Assembly (NCBI GenBank): GCA_021413865.1
Contig: JAIOPN010000006.1
Coordinates: forward strand, 105,409-169,408
DNA length: 64,000 nt
DNA from: Planctomycetota bacterium
Lineage (GTDB): Bacteria > Planctomycetota > Phycisphaerae > Phycisphaerales > Phycisphaeraceae
Reading direction: 5' to 3'
Numbering within the stretch: the stretch's first letter is position 1; each line of letters starts with the position of its first letter. This document shows, piece after piece, positions 1,522 through 31,196 of this stretch. The position numbers were made by a program, and so were the translations under genes. The notes below the pieces were generated by a model. It did no database searches. It saw only the letters and a program-made list of their open reading frames with translations, and was not told the origin of the DNA.

Positions 1522-2580
1522 ATGCCCGCCGACCAGACTTTTTTTGATCCCGCGCACCCCAGGCGTGGCCGGTTCGACGCCCGCGTGGTGTTCAACCGCA
1601 TGCTCTGCCGGGAGCACTTCCTCCTCCGGCTGGTCATCGACGACACCGGCCCGTCGTTCCCGCAAACGTCGCCGGGGCAGTTCATCCAGCTCGGTTGCCG
1701 AACGCCCGACGGCGCGGCGGACATCGACGCGCTGCTGGGGGCGGAGATCGAGTGGCCCCCCGGAAACCCCGGGGGCCAGGCGGCGCTGCGCCAACCCGAG
1801 CTCTGCCAACGCCTCGCATTGCTGCGCCGGCCGTTTAGCCTCGCAGGCCGCGGCGAAGACGACGACGGCGTCTGGATCGAGGTGGTCCACCGTGTCGTCG
1901 GCGCGGGCACCGATTGGCTCTCACGCCTCAAGCCCGGTGAGGCCGTGGACCTCATCGGCCCACTGGGCAATGCCTTCACTCTCCCGGAAGACAAGCACGT
2001 CGCGCTGCTGGTGGGCGGGGGCGTCGGGCTGCCGCCGATGTTTTATCTGGCGGAAGAGCTCTGGCGTCAGGGGTGGACGGCGGTGGCGTTCGTCGGGGCG
2101 ATGACGCGCGACTTGCTGGCCGTGGATTTGAATGAGAATGTCGAGCCGGACGTGACGGGGCTGCCCAAGCTCAGCGCCAGGCAGTTCGCGCGTTTCATGT
2201 TTCCAAGCGTGGTCACGACCGACGACGGGAGCGCGGGCCTCAAGGGGCGGATCACCGCGGGCCTCGAGGGCGTGCTGGAAAACCTGCCCGGCGCCTCGGC
2301 GGCGCAGGCGGTGATTTTCACCTGCGGGCCCGAGCCGATGATGCACGCGGTCGCCAAACTCGCCGCGCACCACGGGATTGACTGCCAGGTCTGCCTCGAG
2401 CAGGCGATGGCGTGCGGGATGGGGACGTGCCAGTCCTGCATCGTGAAGATCGACCCGAAGATGTTCCACCCCGAGCGCAACGAGCCGGCGCAGGGGGCAG
2501 ACGCGGTGGGCCGGCCCTGGCGGTTCAAGCTCGCTTGCACCGACGGGCCGGTGTTTGATTCGAAGATGGTGGTGTGGTGA
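1522..2580 (+). CDS. pyrK: Dihydroorotate dehydrogenase electron transfer subunit (PyrK-like)
   Basis: The 352-residue protein has a ferredoxin-reductase fold: an FAD-binding barrel, then a nucleotide-binding half with LVGGGVGLPPMFYLAEEL. Near the C-terminus is the PyrK [2Fe-2S] pattern C298-x4-C303-x2-C306-x32-C339 (ACGMGTCQSCIVKI then LACTDGPVF). PyrK passes electrons from the flavin of PyrD to NAD in type 1B dihydroorotate dehydrogenase, the fourth step of pyrimidine synthesis. It is ~90 residues longer than typical PyrK (about 260), the extra being mostly in the N-terminal half. No pyrD or other pyrimidine gene is in the window; the downstream neighbour is a hydrolase starting 8 bases after the stop. 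Confidence 0.85.
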   Translation: MPADQTFFDPAHPRRGRFDARVVFNRMLCREHFLLRLVIDDTGPSFPQTSPGQFIQLGCRTPDGAADIDALLGAEIEWPPGNPGGQAALRQPELCQRLALLRRPFSLAGRGEDDDGVWIEVVHRVVGAGTDWLSRLKPGEAVDLIGPLGNAFTLPEDKHVALLVGGGVGLPPMFYLAEELWRQGWTAVAFVGAMTRDLLAVDLNENVEPDVTGLPKLSARQFARFMFPSVVTTDDGSAGLKGRITAGLEGVLENLPGASAAQAVIFTCGPEPMMHAVAKLAAHHGIDCQVCLEQAMACGMGTCQSCIVKIDPKMFHPERNEPAQGADAVGRPWRFKLACTDGPVFDSKMVVW

Positions 2581-2588
2581 GGGCCGAG

Positions 2589-3323
2589 ATGTTGGACGAC
2601 GGCTCATCGATCGTGTCGTTCTCGGGTGGGCGGTACCGCGTCTGGCCGGCACATGACCCGGCTGCGCCGCGCGGGCGATGGGCGGTGCTGCTGCACGGGC
2701 GGGGCGGGGGGATGCAGGATTGCCACCTCACGCTGCCCGAGTTGTTCCCGCTGCGGGATTTGTTCCGGGAGCGCGGAGTGACGGTGGTGGCGCCCGACTA
2801 CGGGAGCGATTGCTGGATGAACCCAGCGGCCGAGGCGTTTGTGCTCGGCGTGATGGCGCATGTGGCGGCGACGCGGCCGGTCGGTGCAGCGCGGGCGGGG
2901 CTGATGGGTGTTTCGATGGGCGGCGGCGGGGCGTTGACGCTGGCGGCGCACCACCCCGAGCGGTTTGATCGTGTCTGCGCGGTGATGCCGGTCACGGACT
3001 ACGCGCGGTTTTACGAGGAGCGTCCGGACTACCGGGCGTCGTTGGGCGCGGCGTACGGCGGGTCGCCGGGCGAGAAGGGGAGTTTGTACCGGGACCGCTC
3101 GGCGGTGTCGCACGTCGGCGTGCTATCGCGGCTGCCGGTGCTGTTGATCCATGGGGCGACGGACGCGCTGGTGACGCCGGATTACAGCCGGCGGTTGCAC
3201 GAGTTGCTCATGCCAGGCGGGAACGTGGAGTTGATCGAGATCCCGGACCGCGGGCACGAGAACGGGATATTTGTTGGTTTGGAGGAGCGGGTGGTGGGGT
3301 GGCTGCAGGGAGAGGGGAGCTAG
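2589..3323 (+). CDS. Alpha/beta hydrolase (prolyl-oligopeptidase/esterase-like)
   Basis: The 244-residue protein has an HGRGGGMQD oxyanion-hole region near the start, a nucleophile elbow GVSMGGGGA (Ser about 109), an acid in IHGATDALVTPD and a catalytic His in DRGHENG near the end. This is a complete Ser-Asp-His set of the alpha/beta hydrolase fold. No signal peptide is seen, so a cytoplasmic esterase or peptidase is likely; the substrate is unknown. The ATG at 2589 is preceded by GAGGG and lies 8 bases after the pyrK stop. GTG codons at 2574 and 2577 overlap the pyrK stop and are alternatives. The 3' end overlaps the fliM end by 4 bases, convergently. Confidence 0.75.
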   Translation: MLDDGSSIVSFSGGRYRVWPAHDPAAPRGRWAVLLHGRGGGMQDCHLTLPELFPLRDLFRERGVTVVAPDYGSDCWMNPAAEAFVLGVMAHVAATRPVGAARAGLMGVSMGGGGALTLAAHHPERFDRVCAVMPVTDYARFYEERPDYRASLGAAYGGSPGEKGSLYRDRSAVSHVGVLSRLPVLLIHGATDALVTPDYSRRLHELLMPGGNVELIEIPDRGHENGIFVGLEERVVGWLQGEGS

Positions 3324-4345
3324 ACGCGGTCCTTGGGCGTGATGGGGCGGAGAACCTTGAAGGCGCGGTTGCCCTTGAACTGGCCCAGGTGGCCGATGTA
3401 TTTACGCCGCCCCTCGATCTCGATGGAGAGCGGGCTGCTGGCGGGTTTTTCGGTGAGGACCAGGTCGCCGACTTGGAGGTGGATCAGGTCGTTGAGCTTG
3501 ATGGTGGTGTCCGCCAGGATGGCGGTGACCGTGAGCCGGGCGCTGGTCAGGTGCTCGGCGACGCGGCTGCGGAGCGCGTCGTAGCGGCTGTTGCGCTTGT
3601 AAGCGGCCCAGGACTGGTTGCTGAGTTTCTCGATCACCGGCTCGATGACGTTGTAGGGGATGCAGAGGCTCATCGTGCCGGCGCGGCCGCCCATCTTCAG
3701 CTCGAAGCCGACCACCACGACGACCTCGTTGGGCGGGACGATCTGCACAAGCTGCGGGTTGCTCTCGGACTCTTCGGTCTTGAACTTGGCGGGCAGGATG
3801 TTCTGCCACGCCTCTTCGAGCGCCCTCACCGCCCGGTCGAGGATCTTCGATACCAGCCGCAGCTCGATCGCGGTGAGCGGGCGCTGCGGGATAAAGAGGT
3901 CCGCATTGGACCCGCCCAGCAGGCGGTCGATGACGGGGTAGATGATCAGCGGGCTGATCTCCAGGCACATGTTGCCCTCGAGCGGCTCGCAGGAGAGCAG
4001 GTTGAAGCAGGTGGGGTTGGGCAGCGAGTGGGTGAACTCGCTGAAGGTCATCTGCTCGATGGTGGCGACCTTCACCTCCATGATGGTGCGGAGGAAGCCC
4101 GAGAGGGCCGCGCCGAAGTTGCGGCTGAACCCCTCGTGAAGGTTCTCCAGGGCCCGCATCTGGTCTTTCGAGACGCGTTCGGGGCGTTTGAAGTCGTAGG
4201 GCTTGATCTCGACGTCTTTTTTCGCCGCGTCGCGCTTGGAGGAGAAAATCTTGGACGAGGCGGTCGCCCCGTCCCCGGGGGTGTCCCCCGCATCGACGGC
4301 GGCGAGCAGGGCATCGACTTCGGATTGGTTGAGCACTTCGGCCAT
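3320..4345 (-). CDS. fliM: Flagellar motor switch protein FliM
   Basis: The protein begins with the conserved CheY-P-binding peptide LNQSEVDALLAAV (residues 5-17). A linker follows, then the middle domain shared with CheC/FliY (including PLEGNMCLEISPLIIYPVIDRLLGG), and a C-terminal SpoA/FliN-like domain (VGDLVLTEKPASSPLSIEIEG). FliM forms part of the C-ring, which sets rotation direction and binds phosphorylated CheY. Its length (341) is usual. No other flagellar gene is in the window, so it is isolated from the main clusters. A possible FliA-type promoter lies upstream. Confidence 0.95.
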   Translation of the reverse strand: MAEVLNQSEVDALLAAVDAGDTPGDGATASSKIFSSKRDAAKKDVEIKPYDFKRPERVSKDQMRALENLHEGFSRNFGAALSGFLRTIMEVKVATIEQMTFSEFTHSLPNPTCFNLLSCEPLEGNMCLEISPLIIYPVIDRLLGGSNADLFIPQRPLTAIELRLVSKILDRAVRALEEAWQNILPAKFKTEESESNPQLVQIVPPNEVVVVVGFELKMGGRAGTMSLCIPYNVIEPVIEKLSNQSWAAYKRNSRYDALRSRVAEHLTSARLTVTAILADTTIKLNDLIHLQVGDLVLTEKPASSPLSIEIEGRRKYIGHLGQFKGNRAFKVLRPITPKDRV

Positions 4346-21443: not shown

Positions 21444-22136
21444 TCACTCGCTCGCGAGCCGGTAGCCCACGCCCTGTTCGGTGAGCAGGTAGCGCGGGCG
21501 TGAGGGGTTTTCCTCGATCTTGTGACGCAGGTTGGCCATGAAGACGCGGAGGTAGTGCGTCTCGTTTTCGCTGGGCGGGCCCCAGACCTCTCGAAGAAGG
21601 TAGGAGTGCGTGAGCACCTTGCCCGCGTGTTTGACCAGCGTGGTGAGCAGGCGGTACTCGATGGGGGTGAGGCGGACCTCGCGCTGGCCGACGAACACGC
21701 GGCGGGCGACACGGTCCACCTTGAGATCGGCGACGGTGAAGAGGGGGCTCTGGTCGTCGGGCCTGGCGGCGTGGCGGAGGGCGACGCGGATGCGTGCCAG
21801 CAATTCGCCGACGCTGAAGGGTTTGGTGAGGTAGTCGTCGGCGCCCAGGTCGAGCGCGGCGACCTTGTCTTTTTCCTGCCCGCGTGCCGAGAGGACGATG
21901 ATCGGGGTGCTCGACCAGTCGCGCACCTGCCGCGTGACCTCGAGCCCGTCCATGTCCGGCAGGCCCAGGTCGAGGATGATCAGGTCGGGCGGCTGCATGG
22001 CCGCCTGCGCCAGGCCCGCCTTGCCGGTCTCCGCCTCGGTCAGGCGGTAGCCGTGCTCGGTGAGCGACGTGTGGAGGAACCGCCTGATCTGCGGCTCGTC
22101 TTCGATGAGCAGGATGATCGGCTGGTCTTCAGGCAT
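21444..22136 (-). CDS. kdpE: KdpE, OmpR/PhoB-family response regulator of potassium transport
   Basis: The 230-residue protein has a receiver domain with E12/D13 and phosphoacceptor D56 (LIILDLGLPDMDG), then a winged-helix DNA-binding domain (RVFVGQREVRLTPIEYRLLTTLVKHAG onward; LREVWGPPSENETHYLRVFM). KdpE is phosphorylated by KdpD and activates the kdp structural genes when potassium is limiting or osmolarity rises. The start overlaps the kdpD end by 8 bases, so they are translationally coupled. The phased repeat arrays upstream of kdp and of the gene at 29892 are candidate binding sites. Confidence 0.93.
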   Translation of the reverse strand: MPEDQPIILLIEDEPQIRRFLHTSLTEHGYRLTEAETGKAGLAQAAMQPPDLIILDLGLPDMDGLEVTRQVRDWSSTPIIVLSARGQEKDKVAALDLGADDYLTKPFSVGELLARIRVALRHAARPDDQSPLFTVADLKVDRVARRVFVGQREVRLTPIEYRLLTTLVKHAGKVLTHSYLLREVWGPPSENETHYLRVFMANLRHKIEENPSRPRYLLTEQGVGYRLASE

Positions 22137-24879
22137 TGGGTGTAACTCCGTCGGGCTCGCCGCGGGAAGGGTCGAGCGCGGGCGGCGCGCCATCGACCGG
22201 GATCGTGAAACGGAAGACCGCGCCGTGGAGCGGGGGCGTGCGGTTCTGCGCCCAGACGCGGCCGCCGTGGGCCTCGATGATAGCCCGGCAGATCGGCAGG
22301 CCCAGGCCCGCGCCGCGCTGGCCGTGCGACAGCCCGCCGCGGTAAAACTTCTCGAACACCTTGCGCTCCTCGCCCGGTTCGAGCCCGGGACCCGAGTCGG
22401 CGACCTCCACGACCACCTGCCCGTCCGCCGCGCGGGCCGTCACCTCGATCGGCGAATCGGCGGGCGTGTACTTGATCGCGTTCTCGATCAAGTGGATCAG
22501 CGCCTGCTCCAGCAGCACCCCGTCCACCGCCACCATGGGCAGATCGCCGGGGATATTCGTCTCCACCGCGCGGCCGGTCAGGCGTATGTCCATCCGCCCC
22601 AGCGCCGAGCCGACGACCTCCTCCAGCGGCTGCCACTGCTTGTTGAGCGCGATGGTGCCGGACTCCAGCCGCGTGATGTCCAGGAGATTCCCGACCAGCC
22701 GGGTGAGCCGCTCGGACTCGTCCTGGATGATGCGGAGCAGCTCACGGCTGGATTCGTCGGCGGGCTTGCGGTCGAGCAGGCTCGAACTCGCGCCGGTGAT
22801 GACGGCCAGCGGGGTGCGCAGGTCGTGGGAGACGGAGCTGAGCAGGGAGCTGCGCAGCTTCTCGGTCTCCGCCTGGACCTGCGAGGTCCGGGCCTCGTGG
22901 GCGAAGCGGTTGCGCTCCACCGCCAGGGCAATCTGGTTGCAGAGCGCATCGAGCAACTGGCGCTGCTCGGGCGCCAGGAGCTGGGGCGTCTGCGCCGTCT
23001 GGATAGCCAGCACGCCGACCGCCTGCCCGCCCGCCATGAGCGGGACGTAGAGCGATTCCGAGGAGGGGAGAGTGTCCGTGCCGTGGCCCGCGATGCTGCG
23101 GTGCTCGAAGACCCATTGCGCGACGGCGACCTCTGAATCCTTGTCGGCGATCTGCGGGTCCGATGGCGCGCGGAGCATCAGCCGGCCGTCTTCACCCGGC
23201 AGGAGCAACGCCACCCGCGCGTGGAACACGTCGCGCAGGTGCCGCGTCGCGGTGTCCACCAGCGCCGAGGTCCCGCCCGCCCCTGCGAGCTGCTGGGTCA
23301 TCTGGTAGAGCGCCTCGGTGCGCCGCTCGCGGTTGCGCGAGGCGTCCACCTGGTCGCGCAGCCGGACCGTGAGCGTGCCGATCAGCAGCGCCACGCCCAG
23401 CATGACCAGGAACGCGATCAGGTACTGCGTGTCGCCCACGGCGAAGGAGAGCCTCGGGTGGACGAAGAAATAATCGAACACCGCGACGCTCAGGAACGAC
23501 GCGTACGCCGACGGCCCGCGCCCGTACCGCGCGGCGATGAAGGCGACCCCGACCAGATAGATCATCAGGAGGTTCGACCGGTCCACGTCGTGCCCCCAGC
23601 CGTACACCATCAGCCCGACGATCGCCGAGCAGGTCATGATGACCAGCGTGGTCCAGCCGTAGGCGGGCCAGTCAATGCCGGGCTCGGCAACGGGGGCCGA
23701 GTCGTCCACCTCCGGGCCTGCCTCCTCGCCGATGCCGCGCACGACATACAGGTCGATCTCCCCGGTGCGGCGCATCAGCACGTCGGCGGTGGAGCGGAAC
23801 AACTGGTCGATCCACCAGGGCCGGTCAGATTTGCCCACGACGATCTTGGAGACGTTGCGCGAGCGGGCGTAGCTGACGATCTCGTCGGCGGTGCTCGGGC
23901 CGGTGAGCGTGACGGTCTCGGCGCCCAGACGCTCGGCGAGGCGGAAGTGGCGCAGGAGCAGGTTGCGGTCGTGCGCGCCGATGTCGCGGAGGCGCGGGGT
24001 CTCGACGTAGGCGGCGATCAGGTCGGCGTGCAGCGACACGGCCAGCCGCTTGGCCGAGCGGATCACCCGTGCCGACGACCGGCTCGGGCTGACGCAGACC
24101 AGCACGCGCTCGGCGGTGGGCCAGGTCTTGCGCGTGAACTGCTCCCGCCGCGCGGTGAGCACCTGGTCGCCCACGCGGTCCGCTGTTTTACGCAGCGCCA
24201 GCTCGCGCAGTGCCGTCAGGTTCGGCTTGCGGAAAAACCCCTCCAGGGCGTAACGCGCCTGGTCCGGCACGTACACCTTCCCCTCCGCCAGCCGCTCGAG
24301 CAGCTCGTCGGGCGAGAGGTCCACCAGCTCGATCTCGTCCGCCTCCTCGAAGACGCGGTCGGGCAGCGTCTCGCGCACGATCACGCCGCTGATCTGGGCC
24401 ACCACGTCGTTGAGGCTCTCGAGATGCTGCACGTTGACGGTGGTGTAAACGTCGATGCCCGCCTGGAGGAGTTCCTCGATGTCCTGCCAACGTCTGTCGT
24501 GGCGCGAGCCCGGTGCGTTGGAGTGCGCCAGCTCGTCCACGAGGATCAGCTCGGGCTTGCGCTTCAGGGCCGCGTCGAGGTCGAACTCCTTGAGCGTGGT
24601 CCCGCGGTACTCGACGATGCGGTGGGGCAGCAGGTCCAGGCCCAGGAGGATCGCCTCCGTCTCTGGCCGGGCGTGCGGCTCGGCGTAACCGACGACGACG
24701 TCCACCCCCTCGCCCGCCTTGGCGCGGCCGGCGGTGAGCATGGCGTAGGTCTTCCCGACCCCCGCCGCCGCGCCGAAGAATATCTTCAGCTTCCCGCGCC
24801 GACGACGCGCCTCCTGCGCCTGCACGTCGGCGAGCAGCGCGTCGGGGTCCGGGCGTTTGTCGTTCTTGTCCGTCGCCAT
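22129..24879 (-). CDS. kdpD: KdpD sensor histidine kinase
   Basis: The 916 residues have the full KdpD layout: an N-terminal KdpD domain with Walker A GAAAGVGKT, a universal-stress-like domain, four closely spaced membrane helices (about 405-505), a GAF-like domain, HisKA with phosphoacceptor His685 (SSVSHDLRTPLAVI) and an HATPase domain ending GLGLPICRAIIEAHGG. It senses potassium and ionic stress and controls KdpE. The start is ATG 24879; the codon before it is TTG. It lies 63 bases after kdpC and overlaps kdpE, so structural and regulatory genes probably form one transcription unit. Confidence 0.95.
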   Translation of the reverse strand: MATDKNDKRPDPDALLADVQAQEARRRRGKLKIFFGAAAGVGKTYAMLTAGRAKAGEGVDVVVGYAEPHARPETEAILLGLDLLPHRIVEYRGTTLKEFDLDAALKRKPELILVDELAHSNAPGSRHDRRWQDIEELLQAGIDVYTTVNVQHLESLNDVVAQISGVIVRETLPDRVFEEADEIELVDLSPDELLERLAEGKVYVPDQARYALEGFFRKPNLTALRELALRKTADRVGDQVLTARREQFTRKTWPTAERVLVCVSPSRSSARVIRSAKRLAVSLHADLIAAYVETPRLRDIGAHDRNLLLRHFRLAERLGAETVTLTGPSTADEIVSYARSRNVSKIVVGKSDRPWWIDQLFRSTADVLMRRTGEIDLYVVRGIGEEAGPEVDDSAPVAEPGIDWPAYGWTTLVIMTCSAIVGLMVYGWGHDVDRSNLLMIYLVGVAFIAARYGRGPSAYASFLSVAVFDYFFVHPRLSFAVGDTQYLIAFLVMLGVALLIGTLTVRLRDQVDASRNRERRTEALYQMTQQLAGAGGTSALVDTATRHLRDVFHARVALLLPGEDGRLMLRAPSDPQIADKDSEVAVAQWVFEHRSIAGHGTDTLPSSESLYVPLMAGGQAVGVLAIQTAQTPQLLAPEQRQLLDALCNQIALAVERNRFAHEARTSQVQAETEKLRSSLLSSVSHDLRTPLAVITGASSSLLDRKPADESSRELLRIIQDESERLTRLVGNLLDITRLESGTIALNKQWQPLEEVVGSALGRMDIRLTGRAVETNIPGDLPMVAVDGVLLEQALIHLIENAIKYTPADSPIEVTARAADGQVVVEVADSGPGLEPGEERKVFEKFYRGGLSHGQRGAGLGLPICRAIIEAHGGRVWAQNRTPPLHGAVFRFTIPVDGAPPALDPSRGEPDGVTPNA

Positions 24880-24942
24880 CAATGACTATCATCCGGCGAA
24901 TCGGGGATTCCACAACTCATCAAGTCTTCTACGCCCCGTGTT

Positions 24943-25512
24943 TTACCGCCCATCCAGCGCGAGATTCAACTCCAGCACGTTCACCCCCGGCTCGCCCAGC
25001 ACGTGCAGCCCCCGCCGCTGCGTGTGCGCGTGGACCATCTTCCGCACCGCGGCGGGTTCCATCCCGCGCAGGCGCGCGACGCGTTCCACCTGGTACTCCG
25101 CGGCGGCGGGGCTGATGTGCGGGTCCAGCCCGCTGCCCGAGGCGGTCACCAGGTCCGCCGGCACCGGCGATGTGTTCCCTGGGTCGGCCGCGCGCAGCGC
25201 GGCGAGGCGTGACTTGACGTTTTCCAGCAGCGCCGGGTTCAGCGGGCCGAGGTTCGACCCGCTCGACGCCGCCGCGTTGTACGCCATCGGCGCCGTTGCC
25301 GACGGGCGACCCCAGAAATATTTCGGGTCGTCGAACGGCTGCCCGATCAGCGCCGAGCCGACGGCCTGGCCTCCGCGCAGGACCAGGCTGCCGTTCGCCT
25401 CATGCGGGAAGAGCGCCTGCGCGATCCCCGTCACCGCCAGCGGGTAAACCACGCCGGTCAGCAGGGTCAGCAGGAGTAACATCACGATCGCGGAACGAAT
25501 CTGCTTTAGCAT
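24943..25512 (-). CDS. kdpC: Potassium-transporting ATPase subunit KdpC
   Basis: The 189-residue protein has one N-terminal membrane helix ([20 protein letters not shown]) and the conserved blocks [50 protein letters not shown] and [14 protein letters not shown]. KdpC stabilises the KdpFABC complex and promotes ATP use by KdpB. A GGAGAA site precedes the ATG. It sits 20 bases after kdpB. Confidence 0.96.
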
Positions 25513-25532: not shown

Positions 25533-27662
25533 TCAGACCAGGTGCAGGCCCACGAGCGCAAGGTCGATCGCCTTGATGCCGATGAACGGCACGATCAGCC
25601 CGCCCAGGCCGTAGATCAGCACGTTGCTCCGCAGGAGCTGCGCCGCCCCCACGGGCCGGTATTTCACGCCCCTCAGCGCCAGCGGGATCAGGAAGATGAT
25701 GACCACCGCGTTGAAGATCACCGACGACAGGATCGCGCTGGCGGGCGAGTGCAGGTCCATCACGTTCAGCTTGTTCAGCACCGGGTAGGTCGTCGCGAAG
25801 GCGGCGGGGATGATCGCGAAATATTTGGCGACGTCGTTGCTGATGCTGAAGGTCGTCAGCGCCCCTCGCGTCATGAGCAACTGCTTGCCGGTCTCCACAA
25901 TCTCGATGAGCTTGGTCGGGTTGCTGTCGAGGTCCACCATGTTGCCGGCCTCCTTGGCGGCCTGCGTGCCCGTGTTCATCGCCACCGCCACGTCCGCCTG
26001 CGCCAGCGCCGGCGCGTCGTTCGTGCCGTCGCCGGTCATCGCGACCAGCCGCCCGCCCGCCTGGTATTCACGGATGAGCTTGAGCTTCGCCTCCGGCGTC
26101 GCCTGGGCGAGGAAGTCGTCCACGCCCGCCTCCGCCGCGATCGCCGCCGCCGTCAGCGGGTTGTCGCCCGTGATCATCACGGTCTTGATCCCCATGCGGC
26201 GCAGCTCGACGAACCGCTCCTTGATCCCGCCCTTGACGATGTCCTTGAGCTGCACCACGCCCATGACCCGCGCGCCGTCCGCGACCACCAGCGGCGTGCC
26301 GCCCTGTTTGGAGATTGCTTCGACATTGGCTCGGACCGATCCGTCGAAGCCCCCGCCCAGGCTGGTGACGAAGGCCTCGATCGCGTCGGCCGCGCCCTTG
26401 CGCACCTCACGGTGGTCCATGTTGACGCCGCTCATACGGGTCTGGGCCGTGAAGGGGACGAAGGTCGCGCCCAGGGCGTGGATGTCCCGGCCGCGCAGGC
26501 CGTACTTCTCCTTCGCCAGCACGACGATGCTCCGCCCCTCGGGCGTCTCGTCGGCGAGCGAGGAGAGCTGCGCGGCGTCGGCTAGCTCCTCGATCTTCAC
26601 GCCGTCGGCGGGGAGGAAGGCGGTCGCCTGGCGGTTGCCCAGCGTGATCGTGCCGGTCTTGTCGAGCAGGAGCACGTCCACGTCGCCCGCCGCCTCGACC
26701 GCACGGCCGGACATGGCGATCACGTTCGCCTGGATCATGCGGTCCATCCCCGCGATGCCGATTGCCGAGAGCAGCCCGCCGATCGTCGTGGGGATCAGGC
26801 AAACCAGCAGCGCGACCAGCGCCGTGACCGTGATGGGCACGCCGACCCCCGCCGATTTCACGCTGTAGAGCGAGAAGGGCAGCAGTGTCGCGCACGCCAG
26901 GAGGAAGATGATCGTCAGCGCGGCGAGCAGGATGTTCAGCGCGATCTCGTTGGGGGTCTTCTGCCGCTTGGCGCCCTCGACCATGGCGATCATGCGGTCC
27001 AGGAAGCTCTCGCCGGGGTCGGCGGTGATGCGGATGATGAGCCAGTCGGAGAGGACGCGCGTCCCGCCCGTGACGGCCGAGCGGTCGCCGCCGGACTCGC
27101 GCACGACCGGCGCGCTCTCGCCCGTGATCGCGCTCTCGTCCACCGAGGCGATGCCCTCGACCACCTCGCCGTCGCCGGGGATCAACTCGCCCGTCTCGAC
27201 GACCACGGTGTCGTGCTTGCGAAGCTGCGAGGCGAAGACCGATTCGATCGTCGAGAGCGCCGGCTTGGATTTGTCTTTCTTGGCGGCGCGCTGCTGCAAG
27301 GCGTCGTGGAACATCCGCTTGGCGTGGACGTCCTTGCGGGTCTTGCGCAGGTTGTCCGCCTGGGCCTTGCCCCGGCCCTCGGCGATCGCCTCGGCGAAGT
27401 TGGCGAACAGCACCGTGAACCAGAGCCAGAGCGAGATCGCCAGCACGAACCAGGGCGAGCCCATCTCCGTCCCCGCCGCCTCGCCCCGTCCCATCAGCGC
27501 CGCGACGAACAGCCCCAGCGTGAAGATGCTGCCGATGAACACGACGAACATCACCGGGTTCTTCACCTGCAGGCGCGGGTCGAGCTTGCGGAACGAATCG
27601 ACGACCGCGCGTTGGACGATCGGGCCGTTGAAAAGCGGGCTTTTGTTCTGTTTTGTGCTCAT
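25533..27662 (-). CDS. kdpB: Potassium-transporting ATPase ATP-binding subunit KdpB
   Basis: KdpB is the P-type ATPase that powers high-affinity potassium import through KdpA. This 709-residue copy has the phosphorylated Asp334 in [16 protein letters not shown], the hinge [20 protein letters not shown] and [20 protein letters not shown], plus about seven membrane helices. It is slightly longer than E. coli KdpB (682), with extra Lys-rich sequence around KKDKSKPAL before the actuator region. The start is taken as ATG 27662; the open frame upstream runs through the hairpin repeat and is not coding. Confidence 0.97.
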
Positions 27663-27676
27663 GTCATCGGTTCCCT

Positions 27677-27706
27677 CTCCCCCTCTCCCCAAGGGGAGAG
27701 GGGGAG
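27677..27706. repeat. Perfect 14-base hairpin between kdpA and kdpB
   Basis: CTCCCCCTCTCCCC, a two-base AA spacer and its exact complement GGGGAGAGGGGGAG lie in the 47-base gap between kdpA and kdpB. A related imperfect copy is at 1465-1491. It may be a dispersed repeat that also affects mRNA stability or the kdpA:kdpB ratio; no T run follows in either direction, so it is not a typical terminator. Confidence 0.7.
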
Positions 27707-27709
27707 ACG

Positions 27710-29527
27710 TCATCGCGTCATCATCAGGTGCTCGACGATCGGCCCCAGCGCCAGCGCCGGGATGAACGTCAGCGCCGCCACGATCAGCACCACGCCGGTC
27801 AGCGTCGCGATGAACAGAGGCGTGTGCGTCGGCAGCGTGCCGGCGCCGGTGGGGATGATCTTCTTGGCCGCCAGCGACCCCGCGATCGCCAGCGCGGCGA
27901 TCTTCACCCAGTACCGCCCCATCAGCATCGCGACGCCCAGGGTCAGGTTGTAGAACGGCGTGTTGGCGCTCAGCCCGGCGAACGCGCTGCCGTTGTTGTT
28001 GCCCGCCGAGGAGTAGGCATACAAAATCTCCGAGAAGCCGTGCGGCCCGGGGTTATAGACACTCGACACGCCCTCCGGCATCACCACCGCGACCGCGGTG
28101 CCCACCAGCACCACCGCGCAGGGGATGAGAATCCCCAGCGACGCCATCTTCATCTCATACGCCTCGATCTTCTTTCCGAGGTATTCCGGCGTCCGTCCCA
28201 CCATCAGCCCGGCGATGAACACCGTCACGATCGCAAACAGCAGCATGCCGTAGAGCCCCGAGCCCACGCCGCCGAAGATCACCTCGCCCAGTTGCATGAG
28301 CAGCATCGGTACCATTCCGCCCAGCGGGGTGAAGGAATCGTGCATGGCGTTGACCGAGCCGTTGGAGGCCGCCGTCGTCGCCGTCGCCCAGAGCGCCGAG
28401 TTCACGACGCCGAACCGCACCTCCTTGCCCTCCATGTTCCCGCCGCTCTGCACCGCCTGCGGCCTGGCGTCCGCTGCCGTCTGATCCACTCCCAGCGCGG
28501 CGATCCCGGGGTTTCCCGACTGCTCCGCCCAGACGCACACGCCCAGGAAGCCCACGAAGATCAGCGTCATGACCGCCAGCACCGCCCAGCCCTGCCGCGT
28601 GTCGCCGACCATTTTCCCGAACGTGTAGCAGAGCGCCGCCGGGATCAGCAGGATCGCCAGCACCTCCAGGAAGTTGGAGAGCGGCGTGGGGTTTTCCAGC
28701 GGGTGCGCCGAGTTGGTGTTGAAGAACCCGCCGCCGTTGGTGCCCAGTTGCTTGATGGCGATCTGCGACGCCGTCGGGCCCACGGCGATCGTCTGCTGCG
28801 TCAGCGCGGTTTTCTCCGTGACCGCGTTGCCCTTGTCGTCCTTCACCGCATTGCCGTCTTTGTCCAATTTAGGGGTGTCGTACGTCGTCGGCTGCACCAG
28901 CGTCACCGTCGCGTAAGGCCCGAGCGTCTGCACCACGCCCTGTGACACCAGCACGACCGCGAAGATCAGCGACATGGGCAGCAGGATGTAGAGCGTCGTG
29001 CGGGTCAGGTCGGCCCAGAAGTTGCCGATCGCCGCCGCGTTCCGCCGTGCGAAGCCACGGATCAGCGCCGCCATCACCGCCATGCCCGCCGCCGCGGAGA
29101 CGAAGTTCTGCGTCGTGAGCCCGACCATCTGCGTCAGGTAGCTCATCGTGGTCTCGCCGCCGTACCCCTGCCAGTTGGTGTTCGTGGCGAAGCTCACCGC
29201 CGTGTTGAACGAGGAATCAGGCGTGATCGAGGCCATCCTCGCCGGGTTCATCGGGAGCGACGCCTGCAGCCGCTGCAGACCGTACACCAGCGCCAGCCCC
29301 GCGAAGTTGAAGAGCAGCATCGCCACCGCGTAGGCCTTCCAGCCCATCTCCTGCTCGGGCTTCACCCCGCACAGCCGGTAGATCGCGCGCTCCACCGGCC
29401 CGAGCAGGCGGTCGATCCCCACGCCACGCCCCTCGTACACCCGGGCCATGTACGCGCCCAGCGGTTTGACGCAGAGCAGCAGCACGCCCATGTACAGGCA
29501 CAATTGAATGAAACCGTTGGTGGTCAT
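27710..29527 (-). CDS. kdpA: Potassium-transporting ATPase potassium-binding subunit KdpA
   Basis: The 605-residue protein begins [21 protein letters not shown] like KdpA, and has about ten membrane helices. Conserved filter-type segments are [40 protein letters not shown] and [20 protein letters not shown]. KdpA binds and passes potassium. It is ~50 residues longer than E. coli KdpA; a Lys/Asp-rich loop (around [18 protein letters not shown]) accounts for much of this. The ATG overlaps the kdpF stop by one base (TAATG). Confidence 0.97.
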
Positions 29528-29616
29528 TAGAAAATCTCCGGCTTCATCATTGCCACGAACAGATAGACCAGCAGCCCGCCCGCGACGACCGCACCGATGA
29601 CATACACCCAATCCAT
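29527..29616 (-). CDS. kdpF: KdpF small membrane subunit
   Basis: A 29-residue frame encodes one membrane helix ([20 protein letters not shown]) and ends in KPEIF, as KdpF usually does. KdpF is a lipid-like stabiliser of the KdpFABC complex. Its GAGGAG ribosome-binding site and its one-base overlap with kdpA (TAATG) confirm that it is translated. Confidence 0.9.
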
Positions 29617-29708: not shown

Positions 29709-29785
29709 CGATGAACTCCGGTTCAGTTGTTTCATGTGACGCGGGAAGTATTGCCGCGTCCGAGTCCGGCGTCGATGCAGAAACC

Positions 29786-29823
29786 GTCAAGAAGGGCGTC
29801 CCCCGCGTCAAGGTTCCGTCAAA
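29786..29823 (-). promoter_or_regulatory. Phased GTCAAG repeat array upstream of the kdp operon
   Basis: Seen from the plus strand, GTCAAG occurs at 29786 and 29807 and GTCAAA at 29818: offsets of 0, 21 and 32 bases, near two and three helical turns. Direct repeats at 11-base steps are how OmpR/PhoB-family regulators bind. The array lies 78 bases before the first kdp ORF, on the side expected of an activator. The same array is found at 30952-30989. Confidence 0.6.
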
Positions 29824-29891
29824 CCCCGGCGGTTATCTCCCCCATCTCCCTCATTTTGCGGAGGCCTTCTATTACTTAGCGCACCGGACTA

Positions 29892-30851
29892 CTATTTGCC
29901 GTTCCCCTCCAGCTCGCGCGGCCTCACCTCACCGCCGTACGGCCCACCCGCGATCGGCTCTGCCTCGATCGCGCGCCGCAGCGCGTCCAAAACCTCCTGG
30001 CAGAGGGTCACCACCTTGCGCTTCTGGTTCAGCGACACCGCCAGGGAGTGCACGTTGGTATTTTCGCGCGAAAATATCAAAATCTGCGCTTTGATCTTCC
30101 CGAACTCGGTGTAGCCCGCGACCGCCTCCGCCAGGTCCGCCTTGCCGGTAAGGTCGGGGACCGCCGCCAGCCCGTCCAGCGCGGCCTGCACCTTCGCCTC
30201 CTCCGCCTCCATCACCGCCTCCATCGCGTCCATCTTCTGGTCGCTCTCTTCCGCGATGTGCGGCGGGAGCAGCGTCTGGAGGCGCAGCACCGCCGTCTGC
30301 GCCGTGAACGCCAGCGTGGTGATTTTCTTGGTCTCAGGCGCGTTCTCGTTGGCGGCCGCCACGCGCAAGAGCGCCGCTTTCATCTTCTCGACCGCCTGCG
30401 CCGCCGGCCCGAACGCCAGGCCGTACGCCTTGAGATTCGTCCCCTTCACCGCCAGGTTCAGCAGCTCCCCGTCCACCCGCTGATATTCCGCGAAGTCCTT
30501 CGTGAACTGCCCGAGCAGCTCCCGCTCGCCCGGCGTGCCGCTCGTCTTCAGCAGCCCATCGAGTGTTCTAATCTCCCGCTCCACCCCTGCGGCCGACGCC
30601 CGCGCCTGGTCGGCGAAGGCGGTCGCCTCCCGGTCCGTGCCCGCCATGACCGCGCTCTTCTCCGCCTCCGACGCTGCCGCCAGCCCTAATTGCATGCGCG
30701 TCACCGCGTCCGCCCGAGCCGCCCGCGACGCCATCTGCGACGCCGGGTCCCGCCCCTCGCGCGAGTGCGCCACCACCGCGATGAAGCCGGCGAACAGGGC
30801 CGCCCCGATCGCCATCCACATCGCTTCACGGATGCTCGGCCTGAGGGTCAT
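29892..30851 (-). CDS. Single-pass membrane protein with a four-helix-bundle MCP-like sensor domain
   Basis: The 319-residue protein has one membrane helix near the N-terminus (MWMAIGAALFAGFIAVVA) and then ~280 residues of almost pure helix (for example DGLLKTSGTPGERELLGQF), like the 4HB_MCP ligand-binding domain of chemoreceptors. It ends without a HAMP or signalling domain. It may be a sensor subunit lacking its output domain or a scaffold. ATG 30851 has a GGAG site. It lies upstream of the kdp operon on the same strand, 183 bases away, and its upstream region carries the same phased repeat array, so joint regulation with kdp is likely. Confidence 0.6.
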   Translation of the reverse strand: MTLRPSIREAMWMAIGAALFAGFIAVVAHSREGRDPASQMASRAARADAVTRMQLGLAAASEAEKSAVMAGTDREATAFADQARASAAGVEREIRTLDGLLKTSGTPGERELLGQFTKDFAEYQRVDGELLNLAVKGTNLKAYGLAFGPAAQAVEKMKAALLRVAAANENAPETKKITTLAFTAQTAVLRLQTLLPPHIAEESDQKMDAMEAVMEAEEAKVQAALDGLAAVPDLTGKADLAEAVAGYTEFGKIKAQILIFSRENTNVHSLAVSLNQKRKVVTLCQEVLDALRRAIEAEPIAGGPYGGEVRPRELEGNGK

Positions 30852-31196
30852 GGGTGCTCCAAAATAAAACCACGGTGCGACATCCCCGCCGCAAGGGGGA
30901 AATCGACAGCTAATCATTCCTTTGAGATTCCCAATCGGCTATACGGAAACGGTCAAGAATGGGCGTGTCTGTGTCAAGGATGGGTTAAGAACACGGAACC
31001 TCGGATGCACACGGGCACGAGGTGACGGCGTGCGCGCCCCGTTTGCCGGGCAACCTGGTGTTCCTGAAGAAAAGTCTGCTTAACACATGAAACTCACACT
31101 CTTCTATCCTCGCCCGCACATCCGCGGTCGATAGTTCCGGGGTACCCGTGGCGGCACGCTTTACTTCCCACCTGAAAGCTCGGGCGGATTACCTGG
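30852..31196. other. 345-base divergent intergenic region
   Basis: It contains the second phased GTCAAG array (30952-30989) and presumably the promoters of the two flanking divergent genes. No supported gene is seen. Confidence 0.6.
30952..30989 (-). promoter_or_regulatory. Second phased GTCAAG repeat array
   Basis: GTCAAG at 30952 and 30973 and GTTAAG at 30984 have exactly the offsets (0, 21, 32) of the kdp array. Bases between the first two repeats (AAxGGGCGT) and on the outer flank (GAAAC before the first repeat) are also shared. It lies ~100 bases before the start of the helix-bundle gene. Confidence 0.6.

Follow-up and report, generated by a model that had tools for sequence, protein, structure and literature searches.

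The signal sensed by the kinase KdpD has long been debated, and regulators of the OmpR/PhoB family generally use direct repeats of about 11 bp. In E. coli, the site of the potassium-starvation regulator KdpE is TTTATA-N5-TTTACA, and residues R193, R200 and T215 of the regulator have been named as important for DNA contact (PMC3264566). The KdpE site of M. smegmatis was mapped by footprint and gel shift to CCGTAAAGAAACCATCAAGGCC (PMC5401905). In M. tuberculosis, the lipoproteins LprF and LprJ bind KdpD (table in PMC3610689).

Here we describe a kdp locus in a window of 64,000 nucleotides (the whole stretch of DNA that was analysed) from a planctomycete, in which the kdp genes and a gene for a helix-bundle protein just upstream of them are each preceded by a phased repeat array (Table 1). 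As at the kdpFABC promoter of E. coli, 6-bp direct half-sites lie 11 bp apart upstream of kdpF, and the locus encodes an orthologue of KdpE in which all three contact residues are kept. The locus differs from that of E. coli in that its half-sites are of the TTGAC type, a second pair lies 32 bp downstream of the first, and a second putative operator serves the neighbouring gene.

Table 1. Features of the kdp region; positions are counted from the first letter of the window.
Feature	Position	Strand	Basis
Helix-bundle array, putative KdpE operator	30940..30989	-	half-sites and profile score
Helix-bundle array half-sites	CTTAAC 30989-30984, CTTGAC 30978-30973, CTTGAC 30957-30952, degenerate CCGTAT 30946-30941	-	
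Inferred -10 box AATGAT (helix-bundle gene)	30913..30918	-	offset 71, same place as that of kdp
Helix-bundle gene, 319 aa	29892..30851	-	PF12729, family alignments, AlphaFold2 model, neighbourhoods
kdp array, putative KdpE operator	29774..29823	-	half-site offsets 0, 11, 32, 43
kdp array half-sites	TTTGAC 29823-29818, CTTGAC 29812-29807, CTTGAC 29791-29786, degenerate CTGCAT 29780-29775	-	
Inferred -10 box AATACT (kdp)	29747..29752	-	offset 71; ATCGAC-like -35 at 29776-29771, 18-bp spacer
Micro-ORF, conserved, 26 aa	29628..29708	-	directly before kdpF
kdpF, 29 aa	29527..29616	-	TIGR02115, E 4e-7
kdpA	27710..29581	-	PF03814, E 6e-249
kdpB	25533..27713	-	open frame; 66-75% identity to frames likewise after kdpA in other kdp loci
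kdpC	24943..25512	-	open frame; 59-64% identity to same-place frames in other kdp loci
kdpD, sensor kinase	22129..24882	-	PF02702, E 3.7e-96, plus HisKA and HATPase_c
kdpE, response regulator	21444..22193	-	domain and PDB matches

Results

Repeat arrays and promoter elements

The original prediction placed repeats of the GTCAAG type upstream of both genes, at offsets 0, 21 and 32, and a pattern scan of the window found them exactly there, at 29786-29823 and 30952-30989. Read along the genes, on the minus strand, the arrays take the form YTTRAC-N5-CTTGAC-N15-CTTGAC, followed by a fourth, degenerate half-site at +43; the full arrangement is TTTGAC-GGAAC-CTTGAC-N15-CTTGAC-GGTTT-CTGCAT on the kdp side and CTTAAC-CCATC-CTTGAC-N15-CTTGAC-CGTTT-CCGTAT on the helix-bundle side. 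Each array consists of two 11-bp-spaced pairs, the second lying 32 bp beyond the first and ending in the degenerate half-site, and the first pairs, TTTGAC-N5-CTTGAC and CTTAAC-N5-CTTGAC, show the 6-bp direct half-sites, 5-bp gap and 11-bp step of a KdpE operator. The arrays had been called identical, which holds for the phasing of the half-sites but not for their sequence, as the two 50-mers have 32 of 50 bases in common; the shared GGGCGT block is present in both arrays, its position differing by one base. The GAAAC said to precede the repeats was also seen, although we reread it as the 5-bp spacer (GTTTC) of the second, proximal pair, an explanation drawn from its likeness to the reverse-complemented M. 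smegmatis site (see below). It is this reading that brings out the fourth half-site at 43 in each array (CTGCAT, CCGTAT), which had not been listed earlier.

Putative -10 boxes lie at offset 71 of both arrays. The hexamer at this offset is AATACT or AATGAT at the window sites and CATGAT and CATACT in L006 and L007; L004 and L005 have a less distinct candidate, and that of L008 lies at offset 60. Relative to other phyla, the window's family has its putative -10 shifted downstream by 11 bp (71 vs 60), and this box, like the proximal half-site pair, is degenerate in the family. The start of the helix-bundle gene was taken as 30851, because the putative -10 box overlaps the ATG at 30917.

The micro-ORF before kdpF is hydrophobic, and at least 30 of 81 loci, spread over many phyla, have a similar frame of 26-42 aa ahead of kdp. 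No model in Pfam or NCBIfam matched it; it may encode an overlooked Kdp peptide.

Conservation of the architecture upstream of kdp

KdpA homologues were collected from five relatives within the organism's family and from 80 loci in many phyla. The architecture recurs in all five relatives, where it precedes the start of the KdpA match by 230-410 bp, as in CTTGATGGTTTCTTGAT-N15-TTTGACGG; the motif is thus positioned upstream of kdpF and kdpA and, as had been anticipated, is kept there in relatives, and in loci across phyla besides. Of 82 kdp upstream regions, 56 contained a loose pair pattern, where shuffled sequences predict 4.1. When an iterated, gap-free profile of 66 columns was built from kdp promoters, half-sites fell at 0, 11, 32 and 43, followed at 60 by a TAnnnT box. 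In leave-one-out scoring with a 50-column profile, 53 of 81 kdp upstream regions exceeded the 99.9% shuffle null, and a recognisable array is missing from about a third of kdp loci. Judged by these profiles, half-sites at 0/11/32/43 are the kdp promoter architecture of bacteria generally, in most of the 81 loci.

Specificity of the two sites

Genome-wide scanning was carried out with patterns and with a sequence-only profile (R1). The strict repeat pattern was absent from all 100 dinucleotide-shuffled versions of the window. Across the 67 contigs (4.37 Mb) of the host genome, where the window sits on G000:C33, it gave two matches, which are the two arrays, against none for the reversed control. 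The motif, then, is not scattered, occurring only at the arrays upstream of the kdp and helix-bundle starts. Loosening the pattern to three mismatches produced 61 genomic matches vs 31 in the reversed control, so that it is uninformative past the top two.

A profile trained on the kdp promoters of other genomes, with neither window site included, ranked the helix-bundle array first in the window (35.0 bits) and the kdp array second (26.8 bits), the next match reaching only 8.3 bits. After removal of all Planctomycetota from the profile, the two arrays still scored 30.8 and 21.6 bits, respectively, with the next match at 8.5 bits, whereas a Markov null of 2 Mb, scanned in both orientations, went no higher than 13.3 bits. 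In the genome-wide R1 search the helix-bundle array had an E-value of 0.0054 and the kdp array 0.0175, individually modest values, and the third match 0.39. The kdp promoter was the top R1 match in each of the five kdp-bearing relatives; because those sites belong to the training set, this shows rarity elsewhere in the genomes rather than independent detection. In G062, which lies outside the training set, the kdp promoter was again the top R1 match, albeit at E 0.23.

Two additional KdpE-like pairs were observed. In the same genome, CTTGATACTTTCTTGAT lies at G000:C58:60823-60839 (L155, L202), some 200 bp ahead of a gene that resembles ammonium transporters, with a third element, CTTGAT, at +34 and not +32; on sequence grounds this is a possible further KdpE target. 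The other, TTTGATGTTTTCTTGAT at G022:C522:7510-7526 (L200), lies between two cation/proton antiporter-like genes.

The regulator and its mapped sites

The window KdpE matches KdpE structures along its length (PDB 6lgq, E 4e-79; 4kny, E 7e-79), and its R216, R223 and T238, read off the alignment, correspond to R193, R200 and T215 of the E. coli protein; the locus therefore encodes a cognate KdpE with conserved contact residues. Reverse-complemented, the M. smegmatis site is GGCCTTGATGGTTTCTTTACGG and contains CTTGATGGTTTCTTTAC, near the sequences of the window and its relatives. The CTTGAT-GGTTT-CTTTAC of this reverse complement resembles the window motif (window GAAACCGTCAAG vs GAAACCATCAAG), although the site was reported as a single pair of 22 bp and comes from another phylum (PMC5401905).

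Predicted fold of the helix-bundle protein

In a Pfam search, only PF12729 (4HB_MCP_1) matched the helix-bundle protein above the cut-off, with an E-value of 1.2e-9 on the longer frame of the gene; the domain was found in all four members of alignment A1, the profile match being partial in the window protein. An AlphaFold2 model made from four sequences (mean pLDDT 81.5, pTM 0.53) has a single N-terminal membrane helix (residues 7-32), followed by helices packed as two four-helix bundles. Its top full-length fold matches were the sensor domains of PilJ, McpS and TorS, with Z of about 15, barely above chance for helical bundles. A four-helix-bundle sensor domain is thus matched by sequence or fold. 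Like these 4HB_MCP_1 sensors, the window protein is predicted to carry a double four-helix bundle after a membrane anchor; unlike them, it is stand-alone, without a second membrane helix, HAMP, kinase or chemoreceptor signalling part. Neither the Pfam search nor the model revealed an output domain. Identity as a methyl-accepting chemotaxis protein was rejected, as HAMP and the cytoplasmic signalling domain are missing from the 319 aa and the model ends after the bundles.

Twelve members align along their length and have the motifs EAEKSAVL..TD, LAV.NTNLKA, PHI and LSRENTNVRS in common; in the L047 and L078 homologues, a lipobox-like N-terminus can be read in place of the membrane helix. By this alignment the proteins are a coherent family, with a membrane anchor or lipobox, a predicted double four-helix bundle and no output domain. 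Three candidates (L183-L185) were rejected as members; their frames are long (about 460-710 aa) and low-scoring, and look like ordinary chemoreceptor-type proteins.

Neighbourhoods and distribution of the family

Besides the window gene, 10 of the 11 homologues with readable context have kdp, kup or KimA-like neighbours. Three of these were found by comparing the protein with kdp loci, and so were ascertained through kdp: in L043 (a Methylobacter MAG) the gene lies between kdpC and kdpD; in L047 it follows a kinase and a sigma-54 regulator and precedes kdpFAB; and in L078 it stands beside a KimA-like permease divergent from kdp. The remaining seven were found by protein search, irrespective of kdp, in 392 genomes of the planctomycete phylum and 395 genomes around G430, whose group proved identical to that sampled around G429. 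Among these seven, the L129 gene sits within the kdp cluster, flanked by kdpC and kdpD but on the opposite strand; the gene lies directly after kdpE in L181, and directly after kup (PF02705) in L182, a copy with an internal stop. It adjoins a KimA-like permease in L175 (PDB 6s3k, E 5e-59) and permeases of the same Pfam family in L176, L178 and L179, the last of which matches KimA with an E-value of 1.6e-7. The exception is L180, also from the protein searches, with only a two-component system nearby. A further homologue from these searches, L177, lies at a contig end beside an ammonium transporter-like gene (652-1983 and 2534-3364). The neighbourhoods provide independent support, at the level of sequence, that the family belongs to K+ uptake in general, beyond Kdp; the suggestion that an uncharacterised sensor-like protein is tied to potassium gains support in this way from other phyla.

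No further homologue was found in 369 genomes of G428's class, and 60 Phycisphaerales relatives, five of them with kdp, yielded none at a convincing score, so the distribution of the family is patchy. KdpE-type arrays near kdp were looked for and not found in L047 and L078, which indicates that not every member is under KdpE control; for the L129 helix-bundle gene, no operator of its own was found. Since some members stand beside Kup or KimA-like genes without a visible KdpD, KdpD cannot be the only partner of the family. A literature search for a kdp- or KimA-linked four-helix-bundle protein gave nothing relevant, subscription journals being mostly outside its coverage.

The kdp control region of L047 (2174-7480) is split: it encodes a short protein corresponding to the KdpD N-terminus, a separate kinase with HAMP/PAS, and a sigma-54 activator, and the helix-bundle gene and kdpF come next.

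Discussion

The sequence evidence argues that both arrays are very probably KdpE operators, co-regulating kdp and the helix-bundle gene. That the arrays are candidate KdpE operators had been proposed, and the proposal has gained from their conservation at kdp across phyla, their rarity, their match to mapped sites and the conserved contact residues of the regulator; the kdp-wide architecture, the mapped sites and the ranking of the window sites as first and second by a profile trained outside the genome together support the KdpE reading well.

We consider it improbable that the upstream array is a second, distal promoter of kdp and the helix-bundle gene a passenger without a potassium role. 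The gene is co-directional with kdp, with its stop about 70 bp before the kdp array, and the failure to find the family convincingly in the Phycisphaerales relatives, including those with kdp, would suit a passenger; however, one would not expect a passenger to accompany K+ importers of different kinds, and homologues in other phyla lie in or by kdp, after kup and beside KimA-like genes, in varied arrangements. Still less probable is that the arrays serve a different member of the OmpR/PhoB family, for instance a phosphate or envelope-stress regulator. Repeats of about 11 bp are family-wide and, from what is known of the family, the genome probably holds further such regulators, but here the half-sites and their spacing agree with mapped KdpE sites (PMC3264566, PMC5401905). 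Moreover, the motif fronts kdp across phyla, and the two best matches of the genome flank kdp.

TTGAC is the consensus of the -35 element, and the repeats might be taken for ordinary sigma-70 -35 hexamers of overlapping promoters; this is highly improbable, as no convincing -10 lies about 17 bp past any of the three TTGAC elements at either window site, so that the spacing is wrong, and the three to four phased copies kept across phyla would be left unexplained. That two clusters of a short motif with low-identity spacers are alike merely by chance is scarcely credible, given the empty shuffles, the two genomic matches against none in the control and the independent profiles that rank the sites first.

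If the arrays are KdpE operators, head-to-tail dimers of phosphorylated KdpE would bind the half-site pairs spaced by 11 bp, namely the distal one at 0/11 and, three helical turns on, the weaker, proximal one at 32/43. These dimers would bring RNA polymerase to a weak promoter a short way downstream. One operator would drive the micro-ORF-kdpF-kdpA-B-C-D-E operon, and the other the membrane-anchored double four-helix-bundle gene immediately upstream. With one operator each, the pump and the helix-bundle protein would be induced together upon K+ limitation.

Lacking an output domain, a stand-alone envelope sensor must act through a partner. The predicted fold and the linkage of the family to Kdp, Kup and KimA-like genes lead us to suggest, tentatively, that the protein acts as an envelope-facing accessory sensor or adaptor, which would tune K+ uptake or its two-component control, possibly by giving KdpD an outward-facing input. 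LprF and LprJ, which are likewise envelope-anchored and have been proposed as sensors feeding KdpD, offer a functional analogy; the helix-bundle family differs from them in its genetic linkage to K+ transport genes, and they are a precedent for function, not relationship. The family may perhaps be a widespread, unrecognised accessory sensor serving three K+ importers (Kdp, Kup and KimA-like), one that in this organism KdpE co-induces and through which KdpD gains its outward-facing input.

If this is true, a co-regulated, envelope-facing partner linked to several K+ importers would be a concrete, testable molecule for KdpD sensing. The cross-phylum operator model, with half-sites at 0, 11, 32 and 43, offers a practical search for KdpE targets beyond kdp in genomes without experimental data. 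Together, the arrays and the neighbourhoods suggest that bacterial potassium uptake has an accessory component that has gone unrecognised.
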